Program-made: the position numbers and the translations under genes
Part shown: positions 50,316 through 64,000 of the stretch, piece by piece
How positions within the stretch are numbered: position 1 is the stretch's first letter
Layout of the letters: every line of letters starts with the position of its first letter
DNA from: Agrobacterium vitis
GTDB taxonomy: Bacteria; Pseudomonadota; Alphaproteobacteria; Rhizobiales; Rhizobiaceae
Direction: 5' to 3'
Assembly: GCF_014926405.1 (NCBI RefSeq)
Contig: NZ_JACXXJ020000003.1
Coordinates: 62,001-126,000 of the forward strand
Length of the DNA stretch: 64,000 nucleotides
Notes under the pieces: generated by a model
Told to the model about the DNA's origin: nothing
The model's input: the letters and a program-made list of their open reading frames with translations, nothing else
The model's database searches: none

Positions 50316-51071
50316 TCAGGGCAGAGTGCGGCAGTTTCCGATTGCCTCGGCAAGTCTGCGGACCACATCGCTGTCGGTTTGCATCTGCCCTGCCCTGGCA
50401 AAACCAAACTCGACCAGAACGGGATCAGCCTCAATCGGTACGCTGCAAGAGGCGTGAAACTCCCGCAGGCCTGCCTGCCAGAACGGCGCAATGCGATCAG
50501 GCCTCAACCCGCCACCGGGCATGATAATGATCCTGCCATCTGCGGCCTTTGAAAGCGATTTCAGTCGATCGAAACCGGCGACGACGGATTGCGCGCCACC
50601 GGACGTGAGAATTCGGCCAAATCCGAGCGCAATCGCCTGCTCCAGCGCTTCATCAAAGTCCGGCACGAGATCGAAAGCCCGGTGCAATGTCATGGCCAGG
50701 CAAGAAGCTGCCGCCGTAAGTTTGCCAAGCACCTCGAGGTCCAGCCGTCCATCAGGCAGAGACGCCCCAAGCACGACACCGGATAACCCTGCCTGCCGCG
50801 CGGCTTTGATATCCGCCACCATGACGGCGACCTCATCGGTTGAGAACACGAAACTGCCTGCCCGTGGCCGGATCATCGCAAAAACCGGAATGGGCGCCTG
50901 AGCGGCGCGCTGCATCAAACCTGATGTCGGCGTCAGCCCCCCGCAGTCAAGGGCAGCGCAAAGCTCGATCCGGTCTGCGCCACCGGAAATTGCCGCCTCC
51001 AGCCCCGCAACGGAATCGACGCAGACTTCCAGCAAACCGCTATCGTTCTTTTCTGGTTCACGTTCTGCCAT
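50316..51071 (-). CDS. cutC: CutC-family protein
   Basis: A 251-residue TIM-barrel protein of the CutC family, named for copper homeostasis though that role is disputed. Conserved stretches are LEVCVDSVAGLEAAISGGADRIELC (about residues 14-38), GGLTPTSGLM, MIRPRAGSFVFS, TLHRAFD and ILTSGGAQS, plus IMPGGGLR. CutC genes often sit in amino-sugar loci with hexosaminidases, as here, so a metabolic role is as likely as copper handling. It is the last gene of the seven-gene leftward set beginning at ridA. Confidence 0.9.
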   Translation of the reverse strand: MAEREPEKNDSGLLEVCVDSVAGLEAAISGGADRIELCAALDCGGLTPTSGLMQRAAQAPIPVFAMIRPRAGSFVFSTDEVAVMVADIKAARQAGLSGVVLGASLPDGRLDLEVLGKLTAAASCLAMTLHRAFDLVPDFDEALEQAIALGFGRILTSGGAQSVVAGFDRLKSLSKAADGRIIIMPGGGLRPDRIAPFWQAGLREFHASCSVPIEADPVLVEFGFARAGQMQTDSDVVRRLAEAIGNCRTLP

Positions 51072-51095
51072 GATGGTCTCTTCTCTGTATTCCGG

Positions 51096-52304
51096 TCATT
51101 GAGCGCCCCTGAAGGACCGTGGCTTTTCCAGCATTAGCAACAGCAAAATACCGCAAAAGCCAGCCAGGGCACCTAGCATTGCCGTGCCTGAATAATTGCT
51201 GACCCCGGTGCCGAATGCAAAGAGCAGCGAGTTCAATCCACCGCTCAAGAAGATATTCACCGCAATGAGCGAGCTACCAAGACCAGCGCGGTCGGCAATC
51301 AGGTTTTGCAGATAGGTAATCGGCACGCTGATGATCGCCGCCGCCCCGAAACCGGCAATGCCTGAGAGCAGATAGACATGTTCTGGCCGCGAGGCGAGTC
51401 CGAGGCCCAGCAGATAGACGCAATAGATCAGCGAACCGGCAACAAGCGTCGCCACACTGGAGGTTTTGCGCTCCACCCAGCCCCAGAACAGAATGAAGAC
51501 GATTTCCAGAAAGGCGACGATACCGACGATAATACCGACATCGCCGGTCGTGCCATGTGCTGGCCCGGTCATGACAAGGGGCAGCACGACGCCGTTCATT
51601 TGCAGCATGGCGGTGATCAGCGCGATGGCGCCAAGCCGCAACAATAATCCTGGCGAAGCGATTTTCGACAAGGATGAAAAAAACGCCAGACTTGCGGAGG
51701 GTTCGGCCCGTGCCTCCGCCTTCGGCAACCAGACCAGAAACAGCAAGAAGCAGGCGAGTCCGCCAAGGCTGGCAAACAAAAAGGCAGGCAACATGCTTTT
51801 CTGACCTGCCAGAAAGAAACCGACCAGGCCGGGTACCAAGACCCAGGAGGCCGAGATAATTGCCCGCACCCCGGAATTGACTGCAATCAACTCACGAACC
51901 GGCATATCCTTTGATGCGGCCCGCACATTGGCAAATATCAGCGAATTCAACGCATTATAAACCGGCAGCAACACCAGCGCCGAGGCGACGAAAATGATCT
52001 GGTTCGGTTCGAGAAACACCACCCCATAACCGACCACGCCAAACAAGCTGACGATCACCATGGGCATGCGGAAATGCCCAAGCCTATCCGCCAATATCCC
52101 CACGGCAACGCTGGCGGCGACATTGACGCAGGACGCGATGAAAATCAGCAGCGAGTAATGTGCATTGCTCAATCCCAACTCGTGTATGCCGATGATCGAC
52201 ATATAGGGAGCCGTGGTCGCACCGGACAAGCCGAAGAAGAAAATCGCAATCGCGCTAATCCGGATACCCGGATTGGCGGCGATTATGGAGAGGACTGGCG
52301 GCAT
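51096..52304 (-). CDS. MFS transporter, sugar-efflux (Set)-like
   Basis: A major-facilitator protein of about 402 residues with twelve predicted helices. Features include the SGATTAPYMSIIGIHELGLSNAHYSL segment after helix 1, the motif-A-like loop GILADRLGHFRMP between helices 2 and 3, and a central cytoplasmic loop near WLPKAEARAEP. It resembles SetA-type sugar transporters. Direction and substrate are unknown; its place beside a hexosaminidase and CutC suggests a sugar or amino sugar. The start is uncertain: 52304 (MPPVLS) precedes the first helix, a GTG at 52355 is also open, and neither has a good ribosome site. Confidence 0.82.
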   Translation of the reverse strand: MPPVLSIIAANPGIRISAIAIFFFGLSGATTAPYMSIIGIHELGLSNAHYSLLIFIASCVNVAASVAVGILADRLGHFRMPMVIVSLFGVVGYGVVFLEPNQIIFVASALVLLPVYNALNSLIFANVRAASKDMPVRELIAVNSGVRAIISASWVLVPGLVGFFLAGQKSMLPAFLFASLGGLACFLLFLVWLPKAEARAEPSASLAFFSSLSKIASPGLLLRLGAIALITAMLQMNGVVLPLVMTGPAHGTTGDVGIIVGIVAFLEIVFILFWGWVERKTSSVATLVAGSLIYCVYLLGLGLASRPEHVYLLSGIAGFGAAAIISVPITYLQNLIADRAGLGSSLIAVNIFLSGGLNSLLFAFGTGVSNYSGTAMLGALAGFCGILLLLMLEKPRSFRGAQ

Positions 52305-52413
52305 GAACGCGCTATCTTTGTAAAAACAAGCTGCCGCTGGCTTCACCGGCGGCACCTTTGAGGAATGAGATCGCTTATCTCTCGTTTAAAGTTTGCCTGG
52401 GGGTCTGACGGAT

Positions 52414-53880
52414 TCAATATGAACCTGAACGATTATCGCTACCCGTCCACCGTGCTGAGGTCACCGCTTGCGGCTGGTAGTCGAAATCCTTGACGAAGGG
52501 ATAGATCGGTTGTTTGCGGCGCTTGCTCGGCAAGGCTTCGATATCCTGGTTGATGACCCCATCGGTCAGCGCCATCAGGTTCGGATTGGAAATTGGCTGA
52601 AGCTCGGGAGAAAGATAGCCCGACTTTACCACCAGCAACCGCACCGTTTTCGGATCAATGCCATGCCGGGTGAAATCGGCGAGATTGTGGTAGGGCCTGC
52701 GCTTACTGGCGAGAATAAGGGTAATACCACCAATTTTGACGATGGCCTGGCGCTCCGTCGCCACACCCGGATCATCCAGTCGAAGCACCTCGCAATCAAC
52801 CTCAACCGACGGGCTTGCCGGATCGAGTGATCCACCGACCTTCAGCGCCAATTTCGCCCCCACGCCCGCAGAAAAACAGGCATCGACGGCGGGCTTGTCG
52901 GTCATCCCGCCAATCACCGCCCCGTCGAAATCGCGGGCAATCAATGCCGCCAGGACATCGGCGCGGTCGCCAACTCCACCGCCGGTGGGGTTGTCGCCCG
53001 AGTCAGCGAGAATAATTGGCCGGGTCCGGGTCGTTTCGGCTATGTCGAGTATATCATTCAGTGCCCCCGTCACCGGACCGAACCGGAAGGCTTGGCGCGC
53101 CTCCCAGTAAGATCGGGCAATCTCTTCAGCCACCTTTTGCGCCTCGCTTCGATCCACACCAGTAACCACAGCACAGGCAGTGGCGCGGGGCTCGTCGGCC
53201 CAGACATAACCAACCATCAGATTAGTATCCCATATGCCTGAGCGCTGATCGTGCTTCGGCAATTGCGAATAAAGGCTTTTGGCTGGCTCGTCTTCAGTAG
53301 AGGTTCGTTCTCCGGGAAGAAGAACCGGCACAGGCGCCCAGGCGACACCGGGCGTCTCGCCAGTCCGCAGCGCCTTTACCAACATGTCCCAGGCCCGGAC
53401 CATGGTTTCGCGCACATCGATATGCGGCGCGGTCCGGTAACCGGCGAAAATATCCAGCTGATCGATGATTTTCTGAGTAACATTGCCATGCAGATCGTAA
53501 CTTGCCGCAACCGTGCAATCCGGTCCAACCACCGCGCGGGCAGCCGAAATCCAGTCACCCTCGGCATCGTCCATGCCCTCGACATTCATGGCGCCATGCA
53601 TGGCGAGATAGAGCCCGTCCAGCGGCAGAACGGCCTGTAACCGTTCCAGGAACTCGGCCTTGAAAGTCTCATAAGTCTGGCGCGAAACTGGGCCGCCCGG
53701 GACGGCGCGGGCATGTAGCAAGGGAAAAGCTTTGAACCCATCCGCGCCAAGAAAGCTGAAATAATCGGCACCTAAGAGATCGTCACCGCGCAGCACGCGA
53801 AAATCCTCGATCTGCATCAAAACCGGCGATGACGTACTGCATTCCGTGTGAATGCCACCAACGGCAATTCGAAGTTCCAT
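52414..53880 (-). CDS. M81-family metallopeptidase (MlrC-like), copy 1
   Basis: A 488-residue MlrC/DUF1485 protein. Its relative MlrC hydrolyses the linearised microcystin fragments in Sphingomonas; natural substrates of most members are unknown. Conserved zinc-site regions are LAMHGAMNVEGMDDAEGD (about residues 92-109) and ASYDLHGNVT (about 125-134). DSGDNPTGGGVGDRADVL is the strongest family signature (about 296-313), and YLSPELQPISN lies in the C-terminal domain. A second member is encoded at 58.5-60.0 kb in the same cluster. AAGGAAA precedes the ATG; 11 bp separate it from the GH20 gene. Confidence 0.9.
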   Translation of the reverse strand: MELRIAVGGIHTECSTSSPVLMQIEDFRVLRGDDLLGADYFSFLGADGFKAFPLLHARAVPGGPVSRQTYETFKAEFLERLQAVLPLDGLYLAMHGAMNVEGMDDAEGDWISAARAVVGPDCTVAASYDLHGNVTQKIIDQLDIFAGYRTAPHIDVRETMVRAWDMLVKALRTGETPGVAWAPVPVLLPGERTSTEDEPAKSLYSQLPKHDQRSGIWDTNLMVGYVWADEPRATACAVVTGVDRSEAQKVAEEIARSYWEARQAFRFGPVTGALNDILDIAETTRTRPIILADSGDNPTGGGVGDRADVLAALIARDFDGAVIGGMTDKPAVDACFSAGVGAKLALKVGGSLDPASPSVEVDCEVLRLDDPGVATERQAIVKIGGITLILASKRRPYHNLADFTRHGIDPKTVRLLVVKSGYLSPELQPISNPNLMALTDGVINQDIEALPSKRRKQPIYPFVKDFDYQPQAVTSARWTGSDNRSGSY

Positions 53881-53891
53881 GTCCGATTTCC

Positions 53892-55811
53892 TTAAAAACG
53901 TGGCATCAGCGGTGCGAGAGCTGCAAACCGCAGCCAGTTCTTCTGATCCCTAGGGGTCCAGGCGGCCTCGGCAACAGCCGGCAGGCGCGGAAAGACCAGG
54001 TGGTTGAAGTAATCCCGGTTCAGGAAATGCTCCGACCAGATACAGGCCTGCACACCACACATCCTCGGCTTTAATTCCTCAGGAAATTCCGCGACGGCTT
54101 CATAGGTATAGGTATGGTGCGGCGGCACGGTGCCGGCCCAGCTGGCGCCCGGCTCCTGCCACGCCTCGTCCTGCACCATGTCGAGATAATAGGCCTGTCC
54201 GGGCGTCATCACCACATCATAGCCCTGCCGCGCCAGATCCAGCCCAACCTCCGGCTTCTGCCAGGCCATCAGGAGCGTTCCCTGCGGATCGACACCGCCA
54301 CCGTGGGATACTTCGTCCCAACCGGCCAGTTTCTTGCCGCGGTCTTTCAACATCTGCTGAATGCGCTTCATGAAACGGCTTTGCAGCCCGAATGTGCCGT
54401 CAATGCCCTCCTGCTCCATCAGCTTTTTTGCCAATGGCGAGGCCATCCAGGTATTGGCCGCAACCTCATCACCACCGACATGCACGAGATCGGATGGAAA
54501 GAGAGTGGCCATCTCATCCAAGACCTTGCCGAGAAACACATAAGTCTGCTCAATGGCAGGGTTGAGCGCGTTATTCGGATAGCCTTGGACGGAGCGGTAG
54601 CTGTCAGGCGCTTCCTGGCCATCGACCAGTTCAGGCAAGGCCGTCAAGATCGCGGTGCTATGACCGGGAATATCGATCTCAGGCACGACCTCGACATACA
54701 GCAAGGCGGCGTGGGCGACGATGTGGCCAACATCCTCCTGGGTGTAAAAGCCGCCGACCGGCTCCGCGCCATTGCCAAGCTGCGGCAACATCGGCTCATC
54801 CGGGCCACGCAGCACACCAACTGTCGTGAGTTGCGGATAGGCCTTGATTTCCAACCGCCAAGCCTCGTCATCGGTCAGATGCCAGTGGAAAATATTCAGC
54901 TTCGTCCAGGCCATAATATCGATCAGCCGCAGCACGTCCTGCGTGGGATAAAATTGCCGGGACACATCCAGATGGCAGCCGCGCCAGCCATAACGCGGCG
55001 CATCCTTGATCTGGCCGGATACCGGAAACCTAAACTGCGCGGGGTCATGTCTTGCGCCATGCAGCATTTGCGCCAAGGCCGTCAGTCCATATTGCCGTCC
55101 CGCCTCATCGCCAAAGGACAGCGTAATCTCCTCGGCAAAATCGAGCCAATAGGCAGATGCGCCGAGCGCTGGATCATGGGCGAGTTTCAAGGCTTTGCCC
55201 TGATCGACCGGTGCCAGCGAAAAAGGAACATGGCCAACCGCAAACAGCCGCCGATAAAGCGCATTGACCCGCTCAATCGCCTGTAAGCCGGAAAGATCCG
55301 TACACTTGGCGGGATAGATCGCCACCGGAAAGCCATCGCCCGCCGCAAGGTTCGCCTCGACGGGCCAGGGCAGCAACGAAAAAGGCCTGCTGACCTCCCC
55401 CTTCGGCAACAGAACAGGGGCAGGCTTGCTCACCCGGCCTAGCAGCATCAGATCATCGACGGAGACGACGACATGACGTCCATCGGCAAGAGTCAAATAA
55501 GCTGATTTCGCACCATCCGTGCGATGGCGAGCGGGCCGCCAGAGGCCCTGAACCGTAAACCGCCAGCACCCTCCTGGCGCCAAAACCAGGCCTTCCGGTG
55601 GTGCAAACTGGTGAAAATTGGCGTTGCGCCGCAGGAAAACTGCGTTGTCGCAGACCGGGCCGTCCTTTACCCGCGTCAAGGCCGTATAGGCAAGCTTGAA
55701 ACCGCTGACGGGCTCGGACGATAAGTTGTAGAGGGTGAAGACGAAACCACCGCCGTCATCGCCCTCGATAGGATGCCAAGCATTGTCCAGACGAAAAGCG
55801 ACTTCAGTCAT
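53892..55811 (-). CDS. GH20 beta-N-acetylhexosaminidase
   Basis: A 639-residue enzyme that removes terminal GlcNAc or GalNAc. An N-terminal immunoglobulin-like/CHB part (1-145) precedes the GH20b alpha-beta domain and the TIM barrel, from about residue 270 (YGWRGCHLDVSRQFYP, LNIFHWHLTDDEAWRLEI). The catalytic pair is D448-E449 in VHVGGDEVAAN; W-rich substrate loops follow (LAGWDEVSHGG). No signal peptide, so it acts on imported oligosaccharides. The start at 55811 has AAGGGGAA upstream. It is between an M81 peptidase and an SDR gene in the leftward set. Confidence 0.94.
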   Translation of the reverse strand: MTEVAFRLDNAWHPIEGDDGGGFVFTLYNLSSEPVSGFKLAYTALTRVKDGPVCDNAVFLRRNANFHQFAPPEGLVLAPGGCWRFTVQGLWRPARHRTDGAKSAYLTLADGRHVVVSVDDLMLLGRVSKPAPVLLPKGEVSRPFSLLPWPVEANLAAGDGFPVAIYPAKCTDLSGLQAIERVNALYRRLFAVGHVPFSLAPVDQGKALKLAHDPALGASAYWLDFAEEITLSFGDEAGRQYGLTALAQMLHGARHDPAQFRFPVSGQIKDAPRYGWRGCHLDVSRQFYPTQDVLRLIDIMAWTKLNIFHWHLTDDEAWRLEIKAYPQLTTVGVLRGPDEPMLPQLGNGAEPVGGFYTQEDVGHIVAHAALLYVEVVPEIDIPGHSTAILTALPELVDGQEAPDSYRSVQGYPNNALNPAIEQTYVFLGKVLDEMATLFPSDLVHVGGDEVAANTWMASPLAKKLMEQEGIDGTFGLQSRFMKRIQQMLKDRGKKLAGWDEVSHGGGVDPQGTLLMAWQKPEVGLDLARQGYDVVMTPGQAYYLDMVQDEAWQEPGASWAGTVPPHHTYTYEAVAEFPEELKPRMCGVQACIWSEHFLNRDYFNHLVFPRLPAVAEAAWTPRDQKNWLRFAALAPLMPRF

Positions 55812-55845
55812 GACGGTTCCCCTTGAGGTCTGAATGGATGGAGGA

Positions 55846-56623
55846 TCAATAATGCTCGGACTGTGAAAATGTCCGGGCAAGTTCACTTTGGCCTGCCGTC
55901 AACCCACAATCGACGGGAAGGCAGACGCCGGTAATGGCATCAGCCTGATCGCCAGCCAGAAAAAAACACCGCATTTGCAACATCCTGCGCCGTGGCGATC
56001 CGTTGCAAGGCATACCAACGCTTGGCCTCTTCGAACACGGCAGGATTGGCAGCGGCGCGCGCTTCCCAGGCCTGGGTGCGCACCGTGCCGGGCGCCACCG
56101 CATTGGCACGAATGCCGAATTTCCCATACTCCACCGCGATCAATCGGGTCAGATGGATCAGACCAGCCTTCGCCGCGCTATAGGCTGGATGGCCGAACAC
56201 GGCCATCCCGTTGACCGAGGCAATGTTGATGACCGCGCCTTGTGATTGTTTCAGTTGATTTTCCAAAGCCCTGAAGGTCAGGAATGCGGCTTCCAGATTG
56301 AGCGTATTATCCTGGCGCCAGATGGCAGCATCGGTATCGTGCAGACTGACGGCCCTCGCGGCCCCGGCATTGTTGACGAGGGTCCTGGTAACCCCAAACT
56401 CCTGCACCGCAGATGCCAGAGCATTGATGCTGGCCTCGTCGGTGACGTCACAGACTAGCGGCAGGAAGTTTTCCGTACTGCCGAGGGTTTTCGCAGCCGC
56501 ATTCACCGCGGTCTCATCAATATCGGCCAGCACCACCACATCGTGGCTTGCGGCCAGACGGCCGGCAATTGCCCGCCCGATATCACCGGCGGCACCTGTT
56601 ACCACGGCCACGGATTTCGCCAT
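55846..56623 (-). pseudogene. SDR-family oxidoreductase with a frameshift at a T7 run
   Basis: Short-chain dehydrogenase with the NAD(P) loop TGAAGDIGRAIAGRL, NNAGAA, and catalytic S and Y-x-x-x-K in NIASVNGMAVFGHPAYSAAKAG. The frame ends at 55940 after AVFFSGWRSG. Removing one base from the seven-T run (A7 at 55960-55966 on the plus strand) restores the normal SDR ending FFLAGDQADAITGVCLPVDCGL and a stop at 55846, giving about 258 residues. The break is therefore one inserted base: a real mutation, phase-variable slippage or a sequencing error. The truncated product would lack only the last C-terminal strand and tail. The ATG is one base past the RpiR stop. Confidence 0.88.
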
Positions 56624-56624
56624 C

Positions 56625-57488
56625 CTAGTCTCCCAGAATCTGACGGTCGTCGCCATCGCGATGTTCGACCAATTGTTGTTTGATGTGGCGCAGCGTCACC
56701 ATGGAAAGCTTGCGATTGCGATAGGCAACCAGACTGGCGATAACATCGACCATGGCCAGATAGGCAAAGCGGGTCGAAGTCGGACGAAAGATATTATCGC
56801 CCTCCGGCAGATCGATACCAACAACCAGCTCGGCAGCCTTGGCGACAGCGCTGTCACTCTGGGTCAGGGCAATCGTGGTAATGCCATTATCACGAGCCAA
56901 CTCGAAACAGCGTGCCAGTTCCAGATTGCGGCCAGAGAAGGATGATCCGACAATGATATCATTGCTGCGCGCCGCCGCCGTCAGCATCAACTGCATATGG
57001 TGATCGGTGCAAGCCGTAACCCGTGACCCCAGCCGAAACAGCCGGTTTTGCAATTCCGAAGCGATCATCGATGAATTGCCGCCAGACCCGAATGCATAGA
57101 TCATTTCGGCGCGGGAAATCCGGTCCGCGACCTTTTCGATCATTGTTGAATCCAGCGAGCGATGCATCATGAAAAGCGCGTTCTGCGCCTTGGTGATGAC
57201 GTCCTCGGCAACATCCTGTGGCTCGGTGCTTTTCGCTTCCGGGTTCAGGTAACGCACGCCGACATAGGCAGTCTTGGCCAGATTGACCTTGAAATCCGAA
57301 AAGCTCTGGCATCCAAGCCTGCGGCAAAAACGGGTCACCGTCGGCGGCGACACTTGCGCCCGCTCCGCCAGCTCGATGATCGATGCGCCGACGGCAAAAT
57401 CCAGCTCGCTCAGGAGAATGTCGGCAATCCGCTGTTCGGAAGGCGAAAATTGCGCGCGATCTTCCTGTATGGTGGCAAAGATATCCAT
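56625..57488 (-). CDS. RpiR-family regulator with SIS domain
   Basis: A 287-residue regulator. The N-terminal HTH_6 domain (FSPSEQRIADILLSELDFAVGASIIELAERAQVSPPTVTRFCRRLGCQSFSDFK, about residues 14-70) binds DNA. The SIS domain (about 115-245, with IYAFGSGGNSSMIASELQNRL and VGSSFSGRN) binds a phosphosugar; members such as MurR and NagR-like proteins sense amino-sugar phosphates. GAGGG stands before the ATG. Placed behind ridA and before the SDR and GH20 genes, it probably controls the divergent catabolic cluster through the ATTTTCAT palindrome at 57964-57984. Confidence 0.92.
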   Translation of the reverse strand: MDIFATIQEDRAQFSPSEQRIADILLSELDFAVGASIIELAERAQVSPPTVTRFCRRLGCQSFSDFKVNLAKTAYVGVRYLNPEAKSTEPQDVAEDVITKAQNALFMMHRSLDSTMIEKVADRISRAEMIYAFGSGGNSSMIASELQNRLFRLGSRVTACTDHHMQLMLTAAARSNDIIVGSSFSGRNLELARCFELARDNGITTIALTQSDSAVAKAAELVVGIDLPEGDNIFRPTSTRFAYLAMVDVIASLVAYRNRKLSMVTLRHIKQQLVEHRDGDDRQILGD

Positions 57489-57507
57489 AAGCCCTCACAA
57501 ACCAACC

Positions 57508-57894
57508 TTATTTGGTCGCCTTATAGGCTATGCAGTCGATCTCGACCTTGCAATCGACCATCATTGAGGCCTGCACGCAGGCGCGGGCTGGCGGATGTTC
57601 GCCGAAATAGCCCTGATAGATCTTGTTGAAGCTCCAGAAATCACGGGGATCATCAATCCAGACACCGCAGCGCACGATATGCTCCACGCCGTAGCCAGCC
57701 TCATGTAAAATGGCGATCAGGTTGCCAATCGCCTTATGGCTCTGCTCGACAATGCCACCCTGGATGATCTCGCCGTCCTCCATCGCCACCTGGCCGGAGA
57801 CATGCAGCCAGCCATCGGCTTCAACTGCTCTGGCAAACGGCAGTTTCTGCCCGCCGGCACCTGCTTTTTCCGCGCCATACCGCTTGATCGTCAT
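57508..57894 (-). CDS. RidA/YjgF-family deaminase
   Basis: A 128-residue RidA-fold protein. Members hydrolyse reactive enamine/imine intermediates such as 2-aminoacrylate released by PLP enzymes. The key arginine is present at R104 (PPARACVQ) and E118 in the KVEIDCIA strand, so imine deaminase activity is plausible. ATG at 57894 has GAGG about seven bases upstream; 13 further open codons lie upstream. First gene of the leftward set. The divergent set encodes a D-serine dehydratase-like enzyme, exactly the type that produces RidA substrates. Confidence 0.9.
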   Translation of the reverse strand: MTIKRYGAEKAGAGGQKLPFARAVEADGWLHVSGQVAMEDGEIIQGGIVEQSHKAIGNLIAILHEAGYGVEHIVRCGVWIDDPRDFWSFNKIYQGYFGEHPPARACVQASMMVDCKVEIDCIAYKATK

Positions 57895-57963
57895 CTCGAC
57901 CTCATGCAAATTATTTTCGTGATCAATTGACAATTCATCATAGAAAACCGATTTTGCCTAGAG

Positions 57964-57984
57964 ATTTTCATAGAAGATGAAAAT
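57964..57984. promoter_or_regulatory. Candidate RpiR operator in the divergent promoter
   Basis: ATTTTCAT-AGAAG-ATGAAAAT, an 8-bp perfect inverted repeat 23 bp upstream of the NTF2-like start, between the leftward and rightward catabolic units. A partial copy (TCATAGAAAA) lies near 57937. It would suit the cluster's RpiR regulator; binding is inferred. Confidence 0.55.
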
Positions 57985-58006
57985 AATTTAGACAAAGGTG
58001 GCTGAG

Positions 58007-58498
58007 ATGCGCGATCCCTTCAAAAACCCCTTCCCGGAAACCGATACTGCGCGCCAAGCAATCTGGGAGATGCTGGTGCCCCGCGACATCGATGCTTTTC
58101 TGGCCGCAGACTGGTCGATGGTGGAAGGTGATTTCGTCGAGGACGGCTTCATCGGCATCAACGGCAATCGCGATCCCAATCCGAATCATTGGCGTCTGAC
58201 TTTCCCGAATCTCGCGGCCTATCGCGACGAGTGGCTGCGTCAGGCCAAGGATTTTGCCGGTCAGAGCCATGGTGAAGATCCGCGCACGGCGATTTTCTTT
58301 ACCACCACGCTGGAAGAAATCGAAATCGAAGGCGAGACGGCTTTGGTGCGCAAGAAATTCGACGGCGGCATCAAAAAAGCCGATGGCGGTTTCGACACCA
58401 TGCGGTGGCAAACGCTCTATTATTGCCGCCTGCACGAAGGCCGGTGGAAAATTTCAGGCTTTACCGGTTATTTGCCCAACCCGATGGGCGTAGTCTGA
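58007..58498 (+). CDS. NTF2-like (SnoaL-fold) protein of unknown function
   Basis: A 163-residue protein whose layout suits the NTF2/SnoaL cone fold: a helix near RQAIWEMLVPRDIDAFLAADWSMVEGDF at the start, then strands such as IFFTTTLEEIEIEGETALVRKKF and TLYYCRLHEGRWKISGFTGYL. I know no assigned function. Related small proteins accompany M81 and PLP enzymes in rhizobial clusters, by my recollection only. ATG at 58007 has AAAGG eight bases upstream; a GTG three codons earlier is possible. First gene of the rightward set. Confidence 0.7.
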   Translation: MRDPFKNPFPETDTARQAIWEMLVPRDIDAFLAADWSMVEGDFVEDGFIGINGNRDPNPNHWRLTFPNLAAYRDEWLRQAKDFAGQSHGEDPRTAIFFTTTLEEIEIEGETALVRKKFDGGIKKADGGFDTMRWQTLYYCRLHEGRWKISGFTGYLPNPMGVV

Positions 58499-58537
58499 GA
58501 AATATTCGTTCCATCAACCGTGATTGGAGGCCACTCC

Positions 58538-60019
58538 GTGCGCATTTTTACAGCCGCCTTTGCAACGGAAACCAACACGTTCTCGCCGATCTGCATCGAC
58601 CGGCGCGCTTTCGAGGCTTCCCTTTACGCGCCACCTGGGCAGCACCCGGCAACTCCGACCCTCTGCACCGCGCCAATCACCGTTGGCCGGGAGGTATGCA
58701 GGGAAAAAGGCTGGGTGCTGATTGAAGGCACCGCGACCTGGGCCGATCCGGCCGGGCTCGTCAATCGGCAGACCTATGAGAGCCTGCGCGACGAAATCCT
58801 CGATCAGTTGACGGCAGCACTTCCCGTCAATGCCGTCGTACTCGGCCTGCACGGCGCCATGGTGGCGGATGGCTATCTCGACCCGGAAGGTGATTTCCTG
58901 AGCCGCATTCGCGCCATTATCGGCCCGGATGTGCTGCTTGCCGCAGAACTGGACCCGCATAGCCATCTGACAGCAAAGCGGGTTGAGGCGGCGGATGTGT
59001 TCGTTGTCTTCAAGGAATTTCCCCATACCGATTTTGTTGACCGCGCCCATGATCTCTGGCGGATCGTCGTCGACACACTGGAAGGCCGCATCACCCCCGT
59101 CATGTCGGTCTTTGACTGCCGGATGATCGATGTCTTTCCCACCTCGCGCCAGCCAATGCGCGCTTTTGTGGACAAAATGATGCAGATCGAACAGGACGAT
59201 CCCGATGTCCTGTCGCTCTCGGTTATTCACGGCTTCATGGCCGGAGACGTGCCGGAAATGGGTACGAAAACCATCGCCATCACCAATAGCAAGGTGGAAA
59301 AAGGCCAGATGCTGGCCCGCACCCTTGGTCTTGAACTGTTCGAAAAACGCGGCACGTTCATGATGCCGCAGATTGATGAAAAACAGGCCGTGGCCGAGGC
59401 GCTCGCAAATCCGGCCGGGCCTGTCGTGATTGCCGACATGTGGGACAATCCCGGCGGCGGTACGGCTGGCGATGCGACTGTCCTGCTTGAGGAACTTCTC
59501 GCGCGGAGTGCAACCAATACAGCGGTCGGGATGATCTGGGACCCGATTGCCGTGCAGATCTGCATGGCGGCTGGCGAAGGGGCGGAAATCCAGCTGCGCT
59601 TTGGTGCGAAATCCGCGCCAGGAACCGGCAATCCTGTCGATGGCTTGGTAAAGGTGGTGAAGGTCGTACCCAATGCCGAAATGCAGTTTGGCGAAAGTGT
59701 CGCGCCGTTTGGCGACGCCGCTCATATCCACCTAGACGGTATCGATATCGTGCTGAGTTCCGTTCGGGTGCAAAGCTACGACCCTTCGCTGTTTACAGTG
59801 CTGGGTATCGATCCCACGTCCAAACATATCCTTGCGATCAAATCCACCAATCATTTCTATGCGGCTTTTTCGAAGATCGCCTCTGACATCCTTTACTGTT
59901 CAGCGGGATCGCCTTATCCCAATAATCCGGCTACCAACCCTTATCGGCGGGTTCGCCGCGACATCTGGCCGATCAGCGCCGATCCTTTCAACCTTGTCCA
60001 GGACACGGAGACTGCCTGA
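58538..60019 (+). CDS. M81-family metallopeptidase (MlrC-like), copy 2
   Basis: A 493-residue MlrC/DUF1485 protein, paralogous to the copy at 52.4 kb. Family regions are GLHGAMVADGYLDPEGD (about residues 103-119), AAELDPHSHLT (about 135-145), FKEFPHTD, ADMWDNPGGGTAGDATVL (about 302-319) and IKSTNHFYAAF near the end. It has a canonical PHSH/HTD pattern where copy 1 has LHGN/APHID, so the two may differ in substrate. GTG start at 58538 has GGAGG eight bases upstream and begins directly with VRIFTAAFATETNT, as in relatives. The next gene starts one base after its stop. Confidence 0.9.
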   Translation: MRIFTAAFATETNTFSPICIDRRAFEASLYAPPGQHPATPTLCTAPITVGREVCREKGWVLIEGTATWADPAGLVNRQTYESLRDEILDQLTAALPVNAVVLGLHGAMVADGYLDPEGDFLSRIRAIIGPDVLLAAELDPHSHLTAKRVEAADVFVVFKEFPHTDFVDRAHDLWRIVVDTLEGRITPVMSVFDCRMIDVFPTSRQPMRAFVDKMMQIEQDDPDVLSLSVIHGFMAGDVPEMGTKTIAITNSKVEKGQMLARTLGLELFEKRGTFMMPQIDEKQAVAEALANPAGPVVIADMWDNPGGGTAGDATVLLEELLARSATNTAVGMIWDPIAVQICMAAGEGAEIQLRFGAKSAPGTGNPVDGLVKVVKVVPNAEMQFGESVAPFGDAAHIHLDGIDIVLSSVRVQSYDPSLFTVLGIDPTSKHILAIKSTNHFYAAFSKIASDILYCSAGSPYPNNPATNPYRRVRRDIWPISADPFNLVQDTETA

Positions 60020-60020
60020 G

Positions 60021-61121
60021 ATGGACCGCCCAATTGACATTCCTGGTCCAAAACCCGGCGATCCAGTTCTCTCGCTGTCAACACCGCTGCCGTTAATCGA
60101 CGAGGATCGGCTTGCTGCCAATATCGCCCGGGTGCAATCCTATATGGATGTCCACGGCTTAGCCTTTCGCCCGCATATCAAGACCCACAAGATTCCACCC
60201 CTCGCCCGCCAGCAGCAGGAGGCCGGTGCGACCGGCATCAATTGCCAGAAAATTACCGAGGCGGAGGTGTTTGCCGGTGCCGGGTTCGAGGACATATTGA
60301 TTACTTTCAATATACTCGGCCCTGAAAAGCTCGTGAGGCTCGCCGCTCTGAATGAGCAGATATCCGGCCTGAAGGTGGTAGCCGACAGCATCGTTACCGT
60401 GGAAGGCCTTTCAAACTATTTTGCAGATCGCAAACCTTTGACCGTATTGGTGGAATGCGACACCGGGGGAGGACGCTGCGGGGTGCAGACACCAGCAGAC
60501 GCCGTTGGCCTGGCGCAAGCGATTTCCGCCAGCAAAGGCCTACGGTTCGGTGGGGTGATGACCTATCCCAAGGCCCACACAGAGCAGGCAGTCGAAAGCT
60601 TTTTTGCCCAAACCCTTGCAAGCCTTGCGTCCCTCAACATTGCCTGTCCGATTGTGTCAAATGGCGGAACGCCTAGCTTGTTTTCCGCCCATCTTGTGCC
60701 ATCAGCCACCGAGCATCGCGCTGGAACCTATATCTATAGCGACCGGAGCATGGCGAAGGCTGGACACGGCACGCTTGAAGATTGCGCCATGCATATTCTC
60801 GCCACGGTCGTCTCGCGCCCGACACCGGATCGTGCCATTCTGGATGCTGGCTCTAAAGCGCTGACATCCGACCTGCTCGGCTTTAGCGACTACGGCCTAA
60901 TCGTTGACTATCCGGATGCTGTCATCACCGGCCTGTCCGAAGAACACGGCACCGTCGATCTATCGAAGATTACCGGCAGACGGCCCGAGATCGGCGAAAA
61001 AGTGCGGATCATTCCCAACCACACCTGCGTCGTATCAAACCTGTTCCACATCATGACGTTTCACCGGGATGGTGTGGTCACGCGGGTGGAACAAGTGGCG
61101 GCGCGCGGCCTGGTTTGGTAG
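60021..61121 (+). CDS. D-serine dehydratase-like/D-threonine aldolase-family PLP enzyme
   Basis: A 366-residue fold-type III PLP enzyme. The PLP-lysine region is FRPHIKTHKIP (about residues 49-59); NGGTPSLF and GTYIYSD bind the phosphate. The C-terminal metal site reads IIPNHTCVVSNLF: an H-x-C pair as in eukaryotic-type D-serine dehydratases, whereas D-threonine aldolases have H-x-D (from memory). This favours dehydration of a D-3-hydroxy amino acid to an enamine. ATG at 60021 follows the M81 stop by one base, so they are coupled. It converges with the ABC ATPase gene, 18 bp apart. Confidence 0.88.
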   Translation: MDRPIDIPGPKPGDPVLSLSTPLPLIDEDRLAANIARVQSYMDVHGLAFRPHIKTHKIPPLARQQQEAGATGINCQKITEAEVFAGAGFEDILITFNILGPEKLVRLAALNEQISGLKVVADSIVTVEGLSNYFADRKPLTVLVECDTGGGRCGVQTPADAVGLAQAISASKGLRFGGVMTYPKAHTEQAVESFFAQTLASLASLNIACPIVSNGGTPSLFSAHLVPSATEHRAGTYIYSDRSMAKAGHGTLEDCAMHILATVVSRPTPDRAILDAGSKALTSDLLGFSDYGLIVDYPDAVITGLSEEHGTVDLSKITGRRPEIGEKVRIIPNHTCVVSNLFHIMTFHRDGVVTRVEQVAARGLVW

Positions 61122-61139
61122 CCGCGTTTCCGCCTATTC

Positions 61140-62273
61140 TTAATCCTGAACCGCCTTCAACGCATCCGGCAGCGTTTCCGCCTGCCAGTTGATATGGCGT
61201 TCCAGCGCCTCACCATCAGCGTCGAACAGATGGCAATCACTAGCCTTGATCGTCGTTGTCATGGGCTGGTCTGGCTGAACGGGTGCAGAGCCGGGGAAGA
61301 CCGCACAATAAGGTTCACCATTCGCCAGAGACGCATAGGCGATTGTGCTGGCACCGAGCCGCTCAACGACACTGGGTGTCACAGTGATGGAAAAATCACC
61401 TTTGCCGAGCGCCAGATGTTCTGGGCGAATGCCAAGGGTCAGCTCCTGACCCAGCATATCGGGACGTCCGGTAACAGGAACCGTCACCATCCGGCCTTCA
61501 TAGGCAACGGTAACTCCGTTGGGTCCAACGCCCTTGCAGGAAACCGGCACGAAATTCATCTTCGGATTGCCGATAAAACCGGCAACAAACAGGTTTTGCG
61601 GTTTGTGGTAAAGCTCCAGCGGTGCCCCTACCTGGGCAATATGACCACCATGCAACACGACGATTCGGTCAGCCATGGTCATCGCTTCGATCTGGTCGTG
61701 GGTGACGTAGATCATCGTTGCCTTCAACTGCCGGTGCAGCCGGGTCAGTTCGATGCGCATATCGGCACGTAAGGCGGCGTCGAGGTTGGAAAGCGGTTCA
61801 TCGAACAGGAAAATCTTCGGCTCGCGCACGATGGCCCGGCCAATCGCCACCCGCTGCCGCTGTCCGCCGGAAAGCTGACCCGGTTTCTGTTGCAAGCGCT
61901 GGTCTAGCTGCAAAACCTTAGCCACTGCGTCGATCTTTTCACGGATATGCGCTTCGGGCATTTTCTCGACCCGCAACGGAAAAGCGATATTTTCAAACAC
62001 CGTCATGTGCGGATAGAGCGCATAGGACTGGAACACCATGGCAATGCCGCGCTCAACCGGCGGCAGCGCATTGACCCGAGCTCCATCGATGACGATATCG
62101 CCGCTGGTCGTATCGTCCAGTCCGGCGATCATCCGAAGCAGCGTGGACTTGCCACAGCCGGATGGGCCGACGAAGACCATGAATTCGCCGTCCTTGATGT
62201 CGAGCGAGACGCCCTTGATGACATCGAAATGGCCAAAGGATTTGACGACTTTGTTGAGATAAAGCTGGCCCAC
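61140..62273 (-). CDS. Sugar ABC transporter ATPase, UgpC/MalK type
   Basis: A 377-residue CUT1-class ATPase. Walker A GPSGCGKST (about residues 36-44), Q-loop MVFQSYALYPHMTVF, signature LSGGQRQRVAIGRAI, Walker B IFLFDEPLSNLD and the C-terminal TOBE/MalK domain (LTLGIRPEHLALG) are present. GTG at 62273 (VGQLYLNKVVKSFG) begins the family homology and has GGAG about ten bases upstream; open codons to 62327 look non-coding. Third visible gene of a leftward transporter operon (permease, binding protein, ATPase). Confidence 0.92.
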   Translation of the reverse strand: MGQLYLNKVVKSFGHFDVIKGVSLDIKDGEFMVFVGPSGCGKSTLLRMIAGLDDTTSGDIVIDGARVNALPPVERGIAMVFQSYALYPHMTVFENIAFPLRVEKMPEAHIREKIDAVAKVLQLDQRLQQKPGQLSGGQRQRVAIGRAIVREPKIFLFDEPLSNLDAALRADMRIELTRLHRQLKATMIYVTHDQIEAMTMADRIVVLHGGHIAQVGAPLELYHKPQNLFVAGFIGNPKMNFVPVSCKGVGPNGVTVAYEGRMVTVPVTGRPDMLGQELTLGIRPEHLALGKGDFSITVTPSVVERLGASTIAYASLANGEPYCAVFPGSAPVQPDQPMTTTIKASDCHLFDADGEALERHINWQAETLPDALKAVQD

Positions 62274-62329
62274 CGCGCTGCGTCTCCATACCAACCGGTG
62301 GCCAAACGGCGACCGGCGAAATTCCAAAC

Positions 62330-62365
62330 AAAAACCGGCTGCGAACCCGTATGATCCGCAGCCGG
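62330..62365 (-). terminator. Hairpin with T-run between binding-protein and ATPase genes
   Basis: CCGGCTGCG (62335-62343) pairs perfectly with CGCAGCCGG (62357-62365), and on the minus strand TTTTT follows. It sits just behind the binding-protein stop at 62377 and ahead of the ATPase start. It probably terminates most transcripts, giving excess binding protein, and lets some read through. Confidence 0.8.
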
Positions 62366-62376
62366 AGCCCCGATGT

Positions 62377-63600
62377 TTACTTGTACTGGTCGATAGCAGC
62401 CGACGCCTTCTTCAAGGCCTCAGCAGGCTCGGCCTTACCCGTGACGACAGACTGGACCATTTCGATCATCACATTCTGGAAACCCTTGTAATCCTTGAAC
62501 AAAGGCTCAGGACCACCGAAGGCGATACCATCAATGAACGGCTTCCAGTAAGGCTTATCCTTGATCAACTGCTCAACCTTAGCGGAAGGACGAAGCGGCG
62601 TCAGGCCGGAATCGGTCGTCAGTTCGTATTCTTCCTGCGGTTCTGGCGAGGTAATGTATTTGGCAAATTCCGTTGCCTTGTCCTCGACACCGGACCCCTT
62701 GAAGATCGCCAGGCTATCGGTGATCAACAGCGTGCCGGGACCCTTGGCCGAAGGACCAAGCGGCAACGTGGTAACACCCCAGTGGATATCGGTCTTCAGC
62801 AGGCGATAGGCCGCACCCGTGCTATTCTGGATCATCCCGGCCTTGCCGTCGAGAAAGATGGCCCGGATTTCATTCTGCTCGTAGGCAGTTGCCCCTTCAA
62901 CCGAATAGGGAGCAATGTCCTTATAGGCCTGAAGCGCAGCCAGCACTTCTGGGCTGTCCATGACGATCTTGCCGTCCTTGTCCATCACCTGACCGTTATT
63001 GGTGTAAACCCAGTGCATGAACTGGTGCATGGTGTTGTCGAAGGTCTTGGCAGGCATGCCGTAACCGGCAATACCGGTCTTTTCCTTGATCTGCTTGGCA
63101 AAGGCAATTTCTTCAGCCCAGGTCTTTGGTGGGGTTTCCGGATCAAGACCGGCCTTCTTGAACAGGTCCTTGTTCCAGAACAGCGCCTTGGTGGAGAAGG
63201 CAATCGGCACGCCCCACTGCGTATCGTCGAAAGTTACGGTATCGACGATGTTCGGATAATAGCTCTTCTTTTCGGCATCCGTCATCGGCACCTTGACGAT
63301 CAGGTCGTTCTCGGCGAACTCCTTCAACGTGCGCGAACCGACATAGGCCATGGCGACAGGCGTCCCGGCGGCAGCCAAGGTGGTTGCCTTATCCTGGCAC
63401 TGTTCCCAGCCGACCACTTCCGGCGCAATCTTCCAGCCCGGATTTTTGCCTTCCCAGACCTTGATATATTTCTCATGGATCGGGTCGATCTTGTCGCCAC
63501 AATAGATCCAGCTGATTTCCTTATCCGCCGCAAAACTCGACAGAGCCGAGCTTGCCAGCAGCGCCAGCGCGCCCGCCATGATGGTCAAAGTGTTTTTCAT
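62377..63600 (-). CDS. Sugar ABC transporter solute-binding protein (MalE/UgpB-like)
   Basis: A 407-residue family-1 binding protein with a Sec signal peptide (TLTIMAGALALLASSALSSFA, cleavage about residue 25). Mature features include GWEQCQDKATTLAAAGTPVAMAYVGS, VPIAFSTKALFWNKDLFKKAGLDPETPPKTW and NSTGAAYRLLKTDIHWGV. Two cysteines early in the mature chain (about 34 and 68) could form a disulfide. CUT1 systems import oligosaccharides, glycerol phosphates or amino sugars. The neighbouring GH20 and RpiR genes hint at an amino-sugar oligomer. A hairpin follows the stop. Confidence 0.92.
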   Translation of the reverse strand: MKNTLTIMAGALALLASSALSSFAADKEISWIYCGDKIDPIHEKYIKVWEGKNPGWKIAPEVVGWEQCQDKATTLAAAGTPVAMAYVGSRTLKEFAENDLIVKVPMTDAEKKSYYPNIVDTVTFDDTQWGVPIAFSTKALFWNKDLFKKAGLDPETPPKTWAEEIAFAKQIKEKTGIAGYGMPAKTFDNTMHQFMHWVYTNNGQVMDKDGKIVMDSPEVLAALQAYKDIAPYSVEGATAYEQNEIRAIFLDGKAGMIQNSTGAAYRLLKTDIHWGVTTLPLGPSAKGPGTLLITDSLAIFKGSGVEDKATEFAKYITSPEPQEEYELTTDSGLTPLRPSAKVEQLIKDKPYWKPFIDGIAFGGPEPLFKDYKGFQNVMIEMVQSVVTGKAEPAEALKKASAAIDQYK

Positions 63601-63656
63601 CGATGGTTCCCCTTTGTTGACATTAAACGTGTCTTGGTTGTTTCGAAACCGGCTGC

Positions 63657-64000
63657 CTACTTGACTGCACCCGCCGTCAGGCCACTGACCAGATAGCGTT
63701 GCAGGAAGAAGATCATGATCATCGCCGGCGCAATACCGACGAAGCTTGCGGCCATAAGCTCGTTCCAGATCACTTCCTGACGACCGAAATAGGCAAACAG
63801 GCCAATCGGCAACGGCATGTATTCCGTCTTCGAGTTGAAGGTCAGCGCGAAGATGAAATGCTGCGCATAGGCGGTAATGAAGGTGGTGATGCCGACAACG
63901 GCAATACCCGGCATGGCAAGCGGCAGAACCACGCGCCGGAACGTATAGAAATAGCTGGCGCCATCCACATAAGCCGCTTCCTCAAGCTCCCGTGGAATCC
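63657..64000 (-). CDS. Sugar ABC transporter permease (MalG-like), 5' end outside window
   Basis: The last 114 codons of a CUT1 inner-membrane permease. The EAA loop begins at the window edge (ELEEAAYVDGASYFYTFRRVVLPLAMPG); helices follow (IAVVGITTFITAYAQHFIFAL, SFVGIAPAMIMIFFLQRYLVSG), and the chain ends LTAGAVK as MalG-type proteins do. The gene continues beyond base 64000. The second permease and any regulator are outside the window. The 56-bp gap to the binding-protein gene agrees with a single operon. Confidence 0.92.
   Translation of the reverse strand, partial: IPRELEEAAYVDGASYFYTFRRVVLPLAMPGIAVVGITTFITAYAQHFIFALTFNSKTEYMPLPIGLFAYFGRQEVIWNELMAASFVGIAPAMIMIFFLQRYLVSGLTAGAVK

Follow-up and report, generated by a model that had tools for sequence, protein, structure and literature searches.

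The closest described counterpart of the locus analysed here is the ong cluster for oxidative chitin utilisation of Pseudoalteromonas prydzensis. As set out in the text of that study (PMC9537276), the GH20 hexosaminidase OngA frees 2-acetamido-2-deoxygluconic acid (GlcNAc1A), OngB deacetylates it, and the fold-III pyridoxal phosphate (PLP) enzyme OngC converts the product to 2-keto-3-deoxygluconate (KDG), which is phosphorylated by KdgK. The RpiR-type protein OngR acts as repressor and the RidA-type protein OngD is essential. The activities of OngB, OngC and the KDG kinase as well as the essentiality of OngD are given as experimental results, and OngC is reported to deaminate D-serine and D-threonine too. 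A locus was counted as ong by at least four co-located homologues (E < 1e-5, > 30% identity), and the complete pathway was described only for Gammaproteobacteria, with the exception of one Achromobacter. Glucosamine is treated by another route in Price et al. 2022 (PMC9007349).

Here we analysed a catabolic island at positions 50,316 to 64,000 of a 64,000-nucleotide stretch of Agrobacterium vitis DNA (contig NZ_JACXXJ020000003.1, positions 62,001 to 126,000), in the following called the window. The island contains two M81 proteins of the MlrC type (MlrC-1 and MlrC-2), a fold-III PLP enzyme, RidA, a GH20 hexosaminidase, an RpiR regulator and an ATP-binding cassette (ABC) importer of the CUT1 type (Table 1). 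We consider it probable that it encodes a counterpart of the ong pathway that handles N-acetylated amino-sugar acids under the control of RpiR, and in which MlrC-2 would deacetylate the substrate, the PLP enzyme would dehydrate it and RidA would hydrolyse the resulting intermediate. The analysis established the genes, their synteny, a shared motif, conserved catalytic residues and, in five gammaproteobacterial loci, an M81 gene at the position of OngB. A preliminary description of the sequence had named CutC, a major facilitator superfamily (MFS) transporter, two MlrC, GH20, a short-chain dehydrogenase/reductase (SDR), RpiR, RidA, a PLP enzyme with an H-x-C site and a CUT1 importer; all were recovered as families, the SDR with a broken frame. 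It had called the combination undescribed, and our literature search found no paper on it. The search, with full texts checked in part, also found no link of M81 to amino-sugar acids.

The ong references came from Pseudoalteromonas CF6-2, Pseudoalteromonas shioyasakiensis and a Klebsiella plasmid, whose clusters were identified from the order of their genes and the names of the products; identities were computed against CF6-2 and not against the P. prydzensis sequences. A locus of Pseudoalteromonas NC201 (L076) was rejected as an ong cluster, since Pfam gave NUDIX and other unrelated neighbours. Compared with CF6-2, the window proteins are 58.6% (RidA to OngD), 36.5% (RpiR to OngR), 31.8% over 336 aa (GH20 to OngA) and 24.1% (PLP enzyme to OngC) identical. 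Both systems combine an RpiR regulator, RidA, GH20, a fold-III PLP enzyme with H-x-C and an amide hydrolase, and would share the logic of N-acetyl-aldonate to aldonate to KDG. Unlike the ong cluster, the window locus carries M81 instead of OngB, a PLP enzyme of another clade and a CUT1 importer instead of a sodium:solute symporter (SSS). It has in addition the SDR, a Gfo/Idh/MocA protein (Gfo) and an NTF2-like protein, no KDG kinase is seen in the locus, and the genome lacks the lytic polysaccharide monooxygenase (LPMO) family LPMO_10 (PF03067). The source genome yielded no OngB at a threshold of E ≤ 1e-60; of its 21 first-look candidates, 3 were scored. Judged by analogy, the locus would work like an ong cluster although, with three homologues, it is not a member by the authors' four-gene criterion.

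An M81 gene at the position of OngB

To place MlrC-2 we scanned a one-genome-per-species collection with an MlrC-2 alignment, which confirmed at least 575 loci, and took the best 80. Five of these, from Rheinheimera pacifica, R. sp. A13L, R. aquimaris and two gammaproteobacterial metagenome-assembled genomes (L216, L222, L232, L233, L235), show the gene order OngC | OngR - OngD - OngIT - M81 | OngA. Identities to CF6-2 are 43-46% for OngC, 47-50% for OngR, 72-76% for OngD, 51-55% for OngIT and 36-39% for OngA, such that each of the five loci holds five homologues above 30% and belongs to ong by the four-gene criterion. Their M81 proteins are 54-56% identical to MlrC-2. OngB was not found in these genomes at E ≤ 1e-10, the two metagenome-assembled ones possibly being incomplete. 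M81 thus stands where the GlcNAc1A deacetylase is required. The main texts of the two ong papers, by word search, mention neither M81 nor MlrC nor Rheinheimera.

LPMO_10 was found in four of the five genomes. In L216 (11490-14717, minus strand), L233 and L235 the OngA-like GH20 is fused to an SMP-30/gluconolactonase domain (PF08450), which fits C1-oxidised (lactone) chitin products. The Rheinheimera-type loci resemble the window in combining an MlrC-2-type M81 with RpiR and RidA within a pathway for sugar acids. They differ from it by an OngC-type PLP enzyme, an SSS transporter, a GH20 with an N-terminal signal-like stretch (judged by eye) and, in L216, a TonB receptor that adjoins the OngA-like gene. 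Among four other genomes searched for OngB, three (L184, L211, L210) hold OngB-like proteins, with best identities of 46%, 45% and 26%; these may be D-aminoacylases.

The microcystinase MlrC (PDB 7YLQ) also belongs to the M81 family, and MlrC-2 shares 38.7% identity with it. In MlrC numbering, the zinc ligands E39, D167, H169 and H191 (named in PMC9982164, one passage of which gives H196) are kept in both window M81 proteins and in all 75 members of the MlrC-2 clade, and H133, D332, F260 and K464 are likewise kept in 75 of 75. From the ten substrate residues that the abstract of that paper lists, N41 and D341 are retained in every clade member, whereas the remaining eight are replaced: W59, F67, E70, F96, Q468 and R492 in all 75, S485 in 74 and S392 in 73. 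The NCBIfam MlrC model (NF041767, cut-off 999 bits) scores 375 bits for MlrC-2 and 152 bits for MlrC-1. In an M81 tree of 42 rows, a chosen subset, MlrC-1 is apart from MlrC-2; MlrC itself forms a long branch on the MlrC-2 side, its placement not being settled.

A microcystin-like detoxification, as the name MlrC would suggest, could draw on the kept zinc ligands, the overall identity and the retained N41 and D341. The eight replaced residues, the score below the model cut-off, the sugar-type neighbours and a gene neighbourhood different from that of MlrC argue against it. Microcystin was rejected as substrate on account of these replacements; the island is probably not a microcystin system, and we give the detoxification reading hardly any credence.

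M81 neighbourhoods and the proposed pathway

Genes around M81 were labelled by blastp to single references in 75 of the best 80 loci, five being dropped because the open reading frame (ORF) caller missed M81. The importers recognised were of the tripartite ATP-independent periplasmic (TRAP) type in 35 loci, CUT1 in 20, SSS in 5 and other or none in 15. Within 9 kb of M81 we found PLP or OngC in 51 loci, RpiR in 65, RidA in 39 and OngB in none. A window-like SDR lies near M81 in 17 of 20 CUT1 loci and in 1 of 35 TRAP, 0 of 5 SSS and 1 of 15 other loci. Sugar kinases are found near M81 in 11 of 35 TRAP and 3 of 15 other loci, and in none of the 20 CUT1 and 5 SSS loci. As the M81 rows are related, this distribution is a pattern and not a test. 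In Rhodobacterales the arrangement is RpiR opposite TRAP - M81 - PLP, with RidA and a sugar kinase. In one genome (G475) the parts are split: RpiR opposite TRAP - M81 in one place, and elsewhere RidA and an ABC block opposite PLP and a KDG-kinase-like gene. There, PLP directly precedes a PfkB kinase whose best NCBIfam model is KDG kinase, below cut-off. One protein encoded in the source genome shares 51% identity with the sugar kinase from a Paracoccus locus.

TRAP and SSS carriers usually take up acids, and CUT1 importers neutral sugars. Together with the SDR near the CUT1 loci, this suggests that the acid arises intracellularly through SDR or Gfo. In the proposed pathway, the CUT1 importer would take up an amino sugar or a short, perhaps oxidised, chito-oligosaccharide, which GH20 would cleave in the cytoplasm. 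The N-acetylglucosamine (GlcNAc) part could enter the neighbouring NagK/NagA/NagB-II-type genes. The acid part would be GlcNAc1A, in CUT1 loci possibly formed within the cell by SDR and/or Gfo. MlrC-2, as a zinc amidohydrolase, would remove the acetyl group from an N-acetyl-aldonate such as GlcNAc1A, and the PLP enzyme would eliminate water from the D-2-amino-3-hydroxy acid D-glucosaminate. RidA would help to hydrolyse the enamine/imine to KDG and ammonia, from where a KDG kinase encoded elsewhere could take over. All enzymatic steps in this scheme are inferred, as are the identity of the hexosamine and the parts played by SDR, Gfo, the NTF2-like protein and MlrC-1.

That PLP enzyme and RidA form a D-amino-acid-like step, as put forward in the preliminary description, is supported as far as the gene context shows. 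The substrate suggested there, muropeptide-like or microcystin-like with amino sugar and D-amino acid, holds up for its amino-sugar part; the microcystin-like version is disfavoured by the replaced residues, and a muropeptide is possible for MlrC-1 but nothing demands it. Glucosaminate, at once a D-beta-hydroxy amino acid and a sugar acid, explains the amino-sugar and D-amino-acid parts without a peptide.

A tree of 70 rows places the window PLP enzyme in a clade of 58 rows (support 98/96), with the OngC rows forming one side of a branch at 100/100. The H-x-C motif occurs in 67 of the 70 rows; L217 and L227 lack the pattern and the D-threonine aldolase 4V15 carries H-x-D. The H-x-C site (PNHTC in the window protein) fits dehydratases. 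With BhcC, D-threonine aldolase and D-threo-3-hydroxyaspartate dehydratase the enzyme shares fold-III PLP chemistry and D-beta-hydroxy amino acid substrates would be common to all; it differs from them by its separate clade (BhcC not being among the tree rows) and by H-x-C versus the H-x-D of 4V15.

These relatives permit another explanation, in which the substrates of the island are D-beta-hydroxy amino acids (D-serine, D-threonine, D-3-hydroxyaspartate) in N-acyl or peptidyl form, M81 being a D-aminoacyl amidase and GH20 and CUT1 acting on a glycosylated form. D-threonine aldolase and 3-hydroxyaspartate dehydratase are indeed among the PLP relatives in the PDB, the best NCBIfam model is BhcC (NF045642; 187.7 bits, below the cut-off of 690), some M81 loci contain peptide-type binding proteins, and OngC accepts D-serine and D-threonine as mentioned. 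The carbohydrate-type ABC importer, the HexR-like RpiR, the sugar kinases near M81 in TRAP loci and the presence of M81 inside sugar-acid ong clusters speak against this explanation, which we regard as unlikely.

Several observations weigh against a deacetylase pathway analogous to ong. E70, to which PMC9982164 assigns the role of general base in MlrC, is replaced by Leu throughout the MlrC-2 clade, so that the catalytic detail must differ from MlrC. The window PLP enzyme, at 24% identity and in a separate clade, lies outside the OngC clade and was rejected as an OngC orthologue. In 24 of the 75 loci neither PLP nor OngC lies within 9 kb of M81; 3 of the 17 core loci described below lack the PLP gene, and three further genomes (L048-L050) carry PLP orthologues of 66-70% identity without the core. 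OngB-like and M81 genes occur together, 5.6 kb apart in G493 (47% and 47%) and adjacent in G256 (43% and 32%), and M81 lies beside peptide-type binding proteins in L152 (judged by eye) and L211. The surroundings of M81 in the five ong-type loci showed no kinase. The lack of LPMO_10 in the source genome recurs in all 11 other M81 genomes tested. Zero genome-level co-occurrence of M81 and OngB (at least 50% identity, 398 genomes) was discarded as proof of mutual exclusion: about 1.2 co-occurrences are expected, and the result is no evidence.

A more specific version of the amino-sugar-acid pathway is put forward tentatively. The MlrC-2 clade would be a carbohydrate de-N-acetylase family, in a Pfam family other than that of OngB. 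Cells with CUT1 loci would oxidise imported GlcNAc by SDR/Gfo and follow a non-phosphorylative route (M81 deacetylation, PLP dehydration, KDG) in rhizobia without LPMO, while TRAP loci would import the ready acid and do without SDR. An M81 carbohydrate de-N-acetylase, if true, would be new. It would provide a physiological function for many "microcystinase-like M81 peptidases" annotated by name only, turning peptidases into carbohydrate de-N-acetylases. Catabolism of oxidised amino sugars would then extend from mostly marine Gammaproteobacteria, the range given in the text of PMC9537276, to rhizobia, roseobacters and others.

Related arrangements were noted at three further sites. In L152:7677-13744 (G496), three ORFs of the M81 type lie with an OngC-like enzyme (36%) amid others that resemble peptide-type binding proteins (by eye), perhaps a different, D-amino-acid context for M81. 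The source genome has a second PLP paralogue (58%; L052, G000:C3:1299796-1300875) whose neighbours are RidA, an ABC importer and a CN_hydrolase of the nitrilase superfamily (PF00795), possibly a further amide-hydrolase swap within the same pathway logic. In S. medicae (L072:8409-13053) amino-acid ABC - RidA - IclR genes lie opposite a PLP relative (about 50%), beside sugar ABC - SIS - PfkB, a possible direct glucosaminate locus.

Conservation and control of the island

For the conservation of the island we compared 17 loci: the window, 6 plasmid records, S. meliloti (L071), Qingshengfaniella (L073) and 8 further genomes. They were picked for holding the core, defined as SDR, RpiR and RidA on one side of the divergent region and NTF2-like and MlrC-2 on the other. 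The 17 of 17 for the core is therefore by choice and shows only that the gene order recurs across genera. The bacteria in which the island is conserved live in soil or in association with plants. Importer genes are near the core in 16 loci, the exception being Peteryoungia, where the record ends. Gfo and MFS are each present in 15, PLP in 14, CutC in 5, NagA and SIS in 2 and OngB in none. MlrC-1 (at least 57% identity) was found in 12 and GH20 (at least 50%) in 11; their presence agrees in 16 of 17, L047 having MlrC-1 only, and three Rhizobium plasmids carry a GH20 of 40% identity farther away. Left out of the comparison were the PLP-only loci L048-L050 and the reordered L051. Together with six core loci (L042-L047) these four make up the ten family genomes with a PLP orthologue of at least 65%. 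In L051 PLP (65%), RpiR (58%), MlrC-2 (55%) and RidA (46%) stand in a different order. The stretch from RpiR to the ATPase is present in S. meliloti 1021, and the core together with PLP in R. leguminosarum WSM1325. Megablast with the 13.3-kb island gave matches in 368 plasmid records; none covers 80% in one place, and the best among those listed reaches 65%.

From these counts and the PLP-only loci it follows that core and importer form a unit wherever the core exists, that GH20 and MlrC-1 are an optional module and that PLP can also sit elsewhere. The single catabolic unit of the preliminary description is thereby borne out as far as context shows. Separate conservation of its two halves, named there as an argument to the contrary, is not seen for core and importer, but is seen for the accessories GH20, MlrC-1, MFS and CutC.

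The optional module bears on whether the substrate derives from muropeptides or N-acetylmuramic acid, with GH20 removing GlcNAc, both MlrC proteins cutting lactyl or peptide amides and the PLP enzyme handling the D-amino acid. One GH20 with two amidases would suit such a substrate, as would MurQ and ROK by the importer in Qingshengfaniella. MurQ is, however, found in that single annotated locus, ten island proteins run against Pfam included no other peptidase or muropeptide-type racemase, and GH20/MlrC-1 are absent from about a third of the loci with the core retained. We hold this substrate to be improbable. In the Qingshengfaniella locus (L073:17264-21186) the genes beside the importer run Gfo - CutC - ROK - MurQ; CutC recurs near amino-sugar genes, a hint that this CutC may serve something other than copper. 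SMb21151, to which a role in sugar-amine uptake has been ascribed, was dropped as the ATPase of the S. meliloti locus: the basis was gene numbering only, and its published position, looked up in strain 2011, had no match to the reference proteins.

The divergent region spans 100-119 bases in the 17 loci and contains two facing boxes, TGCAAATTATTTTC and GAAAA(G/T)AATTT, both exact in 16 loci and variant in Qingshengfaniella. A scoring matrix was built from these boxes, and significance was obtained from 200 mononucleotide shuffles. A related site (TGAAATTYATTTTCA, its complement, or CGTAATTTATTTTC) was found upstream of Gfo in 14 of 15 loci, where a fraction of 0 to 0.015 of the shuffles reached the score; the miss is Qingshengfaniella (0.195). 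Over the 64-kb window the highest scores, 26.2 and 20.9, belong to the two divergent-region boxes, with 10.1 for the site that ranks next. The 20-kb L004 has only two sites above 9 (13.1 and 12.6), both before Gfo. The importer-side sites are thus weaker than the divergent-region boxes. The motif suggests that the divergent genes and the importer are one regulon, with RpiR as the putative binding protein at the operator-like sites. The preliminary description had all genes share one divergent control point with RpiR. Common control is likely given the shared motif, but the importer is a separate minus-strand operon that starts outside the divergent region.

Two unrelated neighbouring units, an importer block for amino sugars and a block for amino acids, would account for the variable accessory genes, for the 2.5-4.9 kb of other genes between PLP and importer in three Rhizobium plasmids and for the weaker pre-importer motif. 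Set against this are the importer near the core in nearly all of these core-selected loci and the motif upstream of Gfo; we judge such a coincidence improbable. Among NCBIfam models the regulator matches HexR best, with a score below cut-off; HexR responds to 2-keto-3-deoxy-6-phosphogluconate, which would suit a KDG pathway.

Gene inventory and surroundings

Leftward of the divergent region the order is RidA, RpiR, SDR, GH20, MlrC-1, MFS, CutC, and rightward NTF2-like, MlrC-2, PLP enzyme, the MlrC-2 stop and the PLP ATG being separated by one base (Table 1). The importer faces the PLP side as a minus-strand operon of Gfo/Idh/MocA, permease 2, permease 1, binding protein and ATPase.

Table 1. 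Features of the island, with window positions, strand and basis of assignment
Feature	Position	Strand	Basis
CutC family protein, accessory	50316..51071	-	Pfam CutC 237.5 bits; NCBIfam CutC equivalog below cut-off
MFS transporter, accessory	51096..52355	-	Pfam MFS_1 58.5 bits
MlrC-1, M81 protein, second clade	52414..53880	-	Pfam DUF1485 + MlrC_C; 26.9% to MlrC-2; separate tree branch
GH20 beta-N-acetylhexosaminidase	53892..55811	-	Pfam Glyco_hydro_20 374.9 bits; HVGGDE motif
SDR dehydrogenase, broken frame	55940..56656	-	ORF and Pfam/NCBIfam
RpiR/HexR-like regulator	56625..57488	-	HTH_6 + SIS; NCBIfam HexR subfamily model 186.3 bits, cut-off 296
RidA imine/enamine deaminase	57508..57894	-	Pfam Ribonuc_L-PSP; ORF opens 57933, ATG 57894
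Divergent control region	57895..58006	.	Operator-like boxes 57905-57921 (+) and 57976-57992 (-); 17-region comparison and motif scan
NTF2/SnoaL-like protein	58007..58498	+	No Pfam or NCBIfam match; some database relatives named SnoaL-like; in all core loci
MlrC-2, M81, proposed N-acetyl-aldonate deacetylase	58538..60019	+	Pfam; identity to MlrC 7YLQ; ORF opens 58520
Fold-III PLP enzyme, proposed glucosaminate dehydratase	60021..61121	+	Pfam Ala_racemase_N + D-ser_dehydrat; PNHTC; tree
CUT1 ABC ATPase	61140..62327	-	ORF; ABC genes near core; ugpC annotation in relatives
ABC sugar-binding protein, signal peptide (by eye)	62377..63600	-	ORF; PDB matches are sugar-binding proteins of ABC importers
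ABC permease 1, truncated by window end	63657..64000	-	Permease 2 and Gfo/Idh/MocA next on same contig

Both M81 proteins carry the domain pair PF07364 and PF07171 above gathering score. No signal peptide is evident by eye in the window GH20. The SDR frame is interrupted within seven consecutive T (about 55960-55966), whereas the gene measures 777 bp in six annotated relatives; the break would be either a real frameshift or a homopolymer sequencing error. A PDB search with the SDR found no telling relative.

The NTF2-like gene, also delimited as 57998-58498, lies between the divergent region and MlrC-2, and the nearest database match of its product (96%) is in an Agrobacterium vitis record. 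It also adjoins the PLP gene in some distant loci. Past the importer, just beyond the window end (L004:4952-8928, plus strand), follow GntR, a NagB-II-like SIS protein, NagA and a NagK-like ROK protein. Among the SIS, NagA and ROK proteins only NagA clears its NCBIfam cut-off (TIGR00221). Relatives of GntR, SIS and NagA are also present in locus L043.

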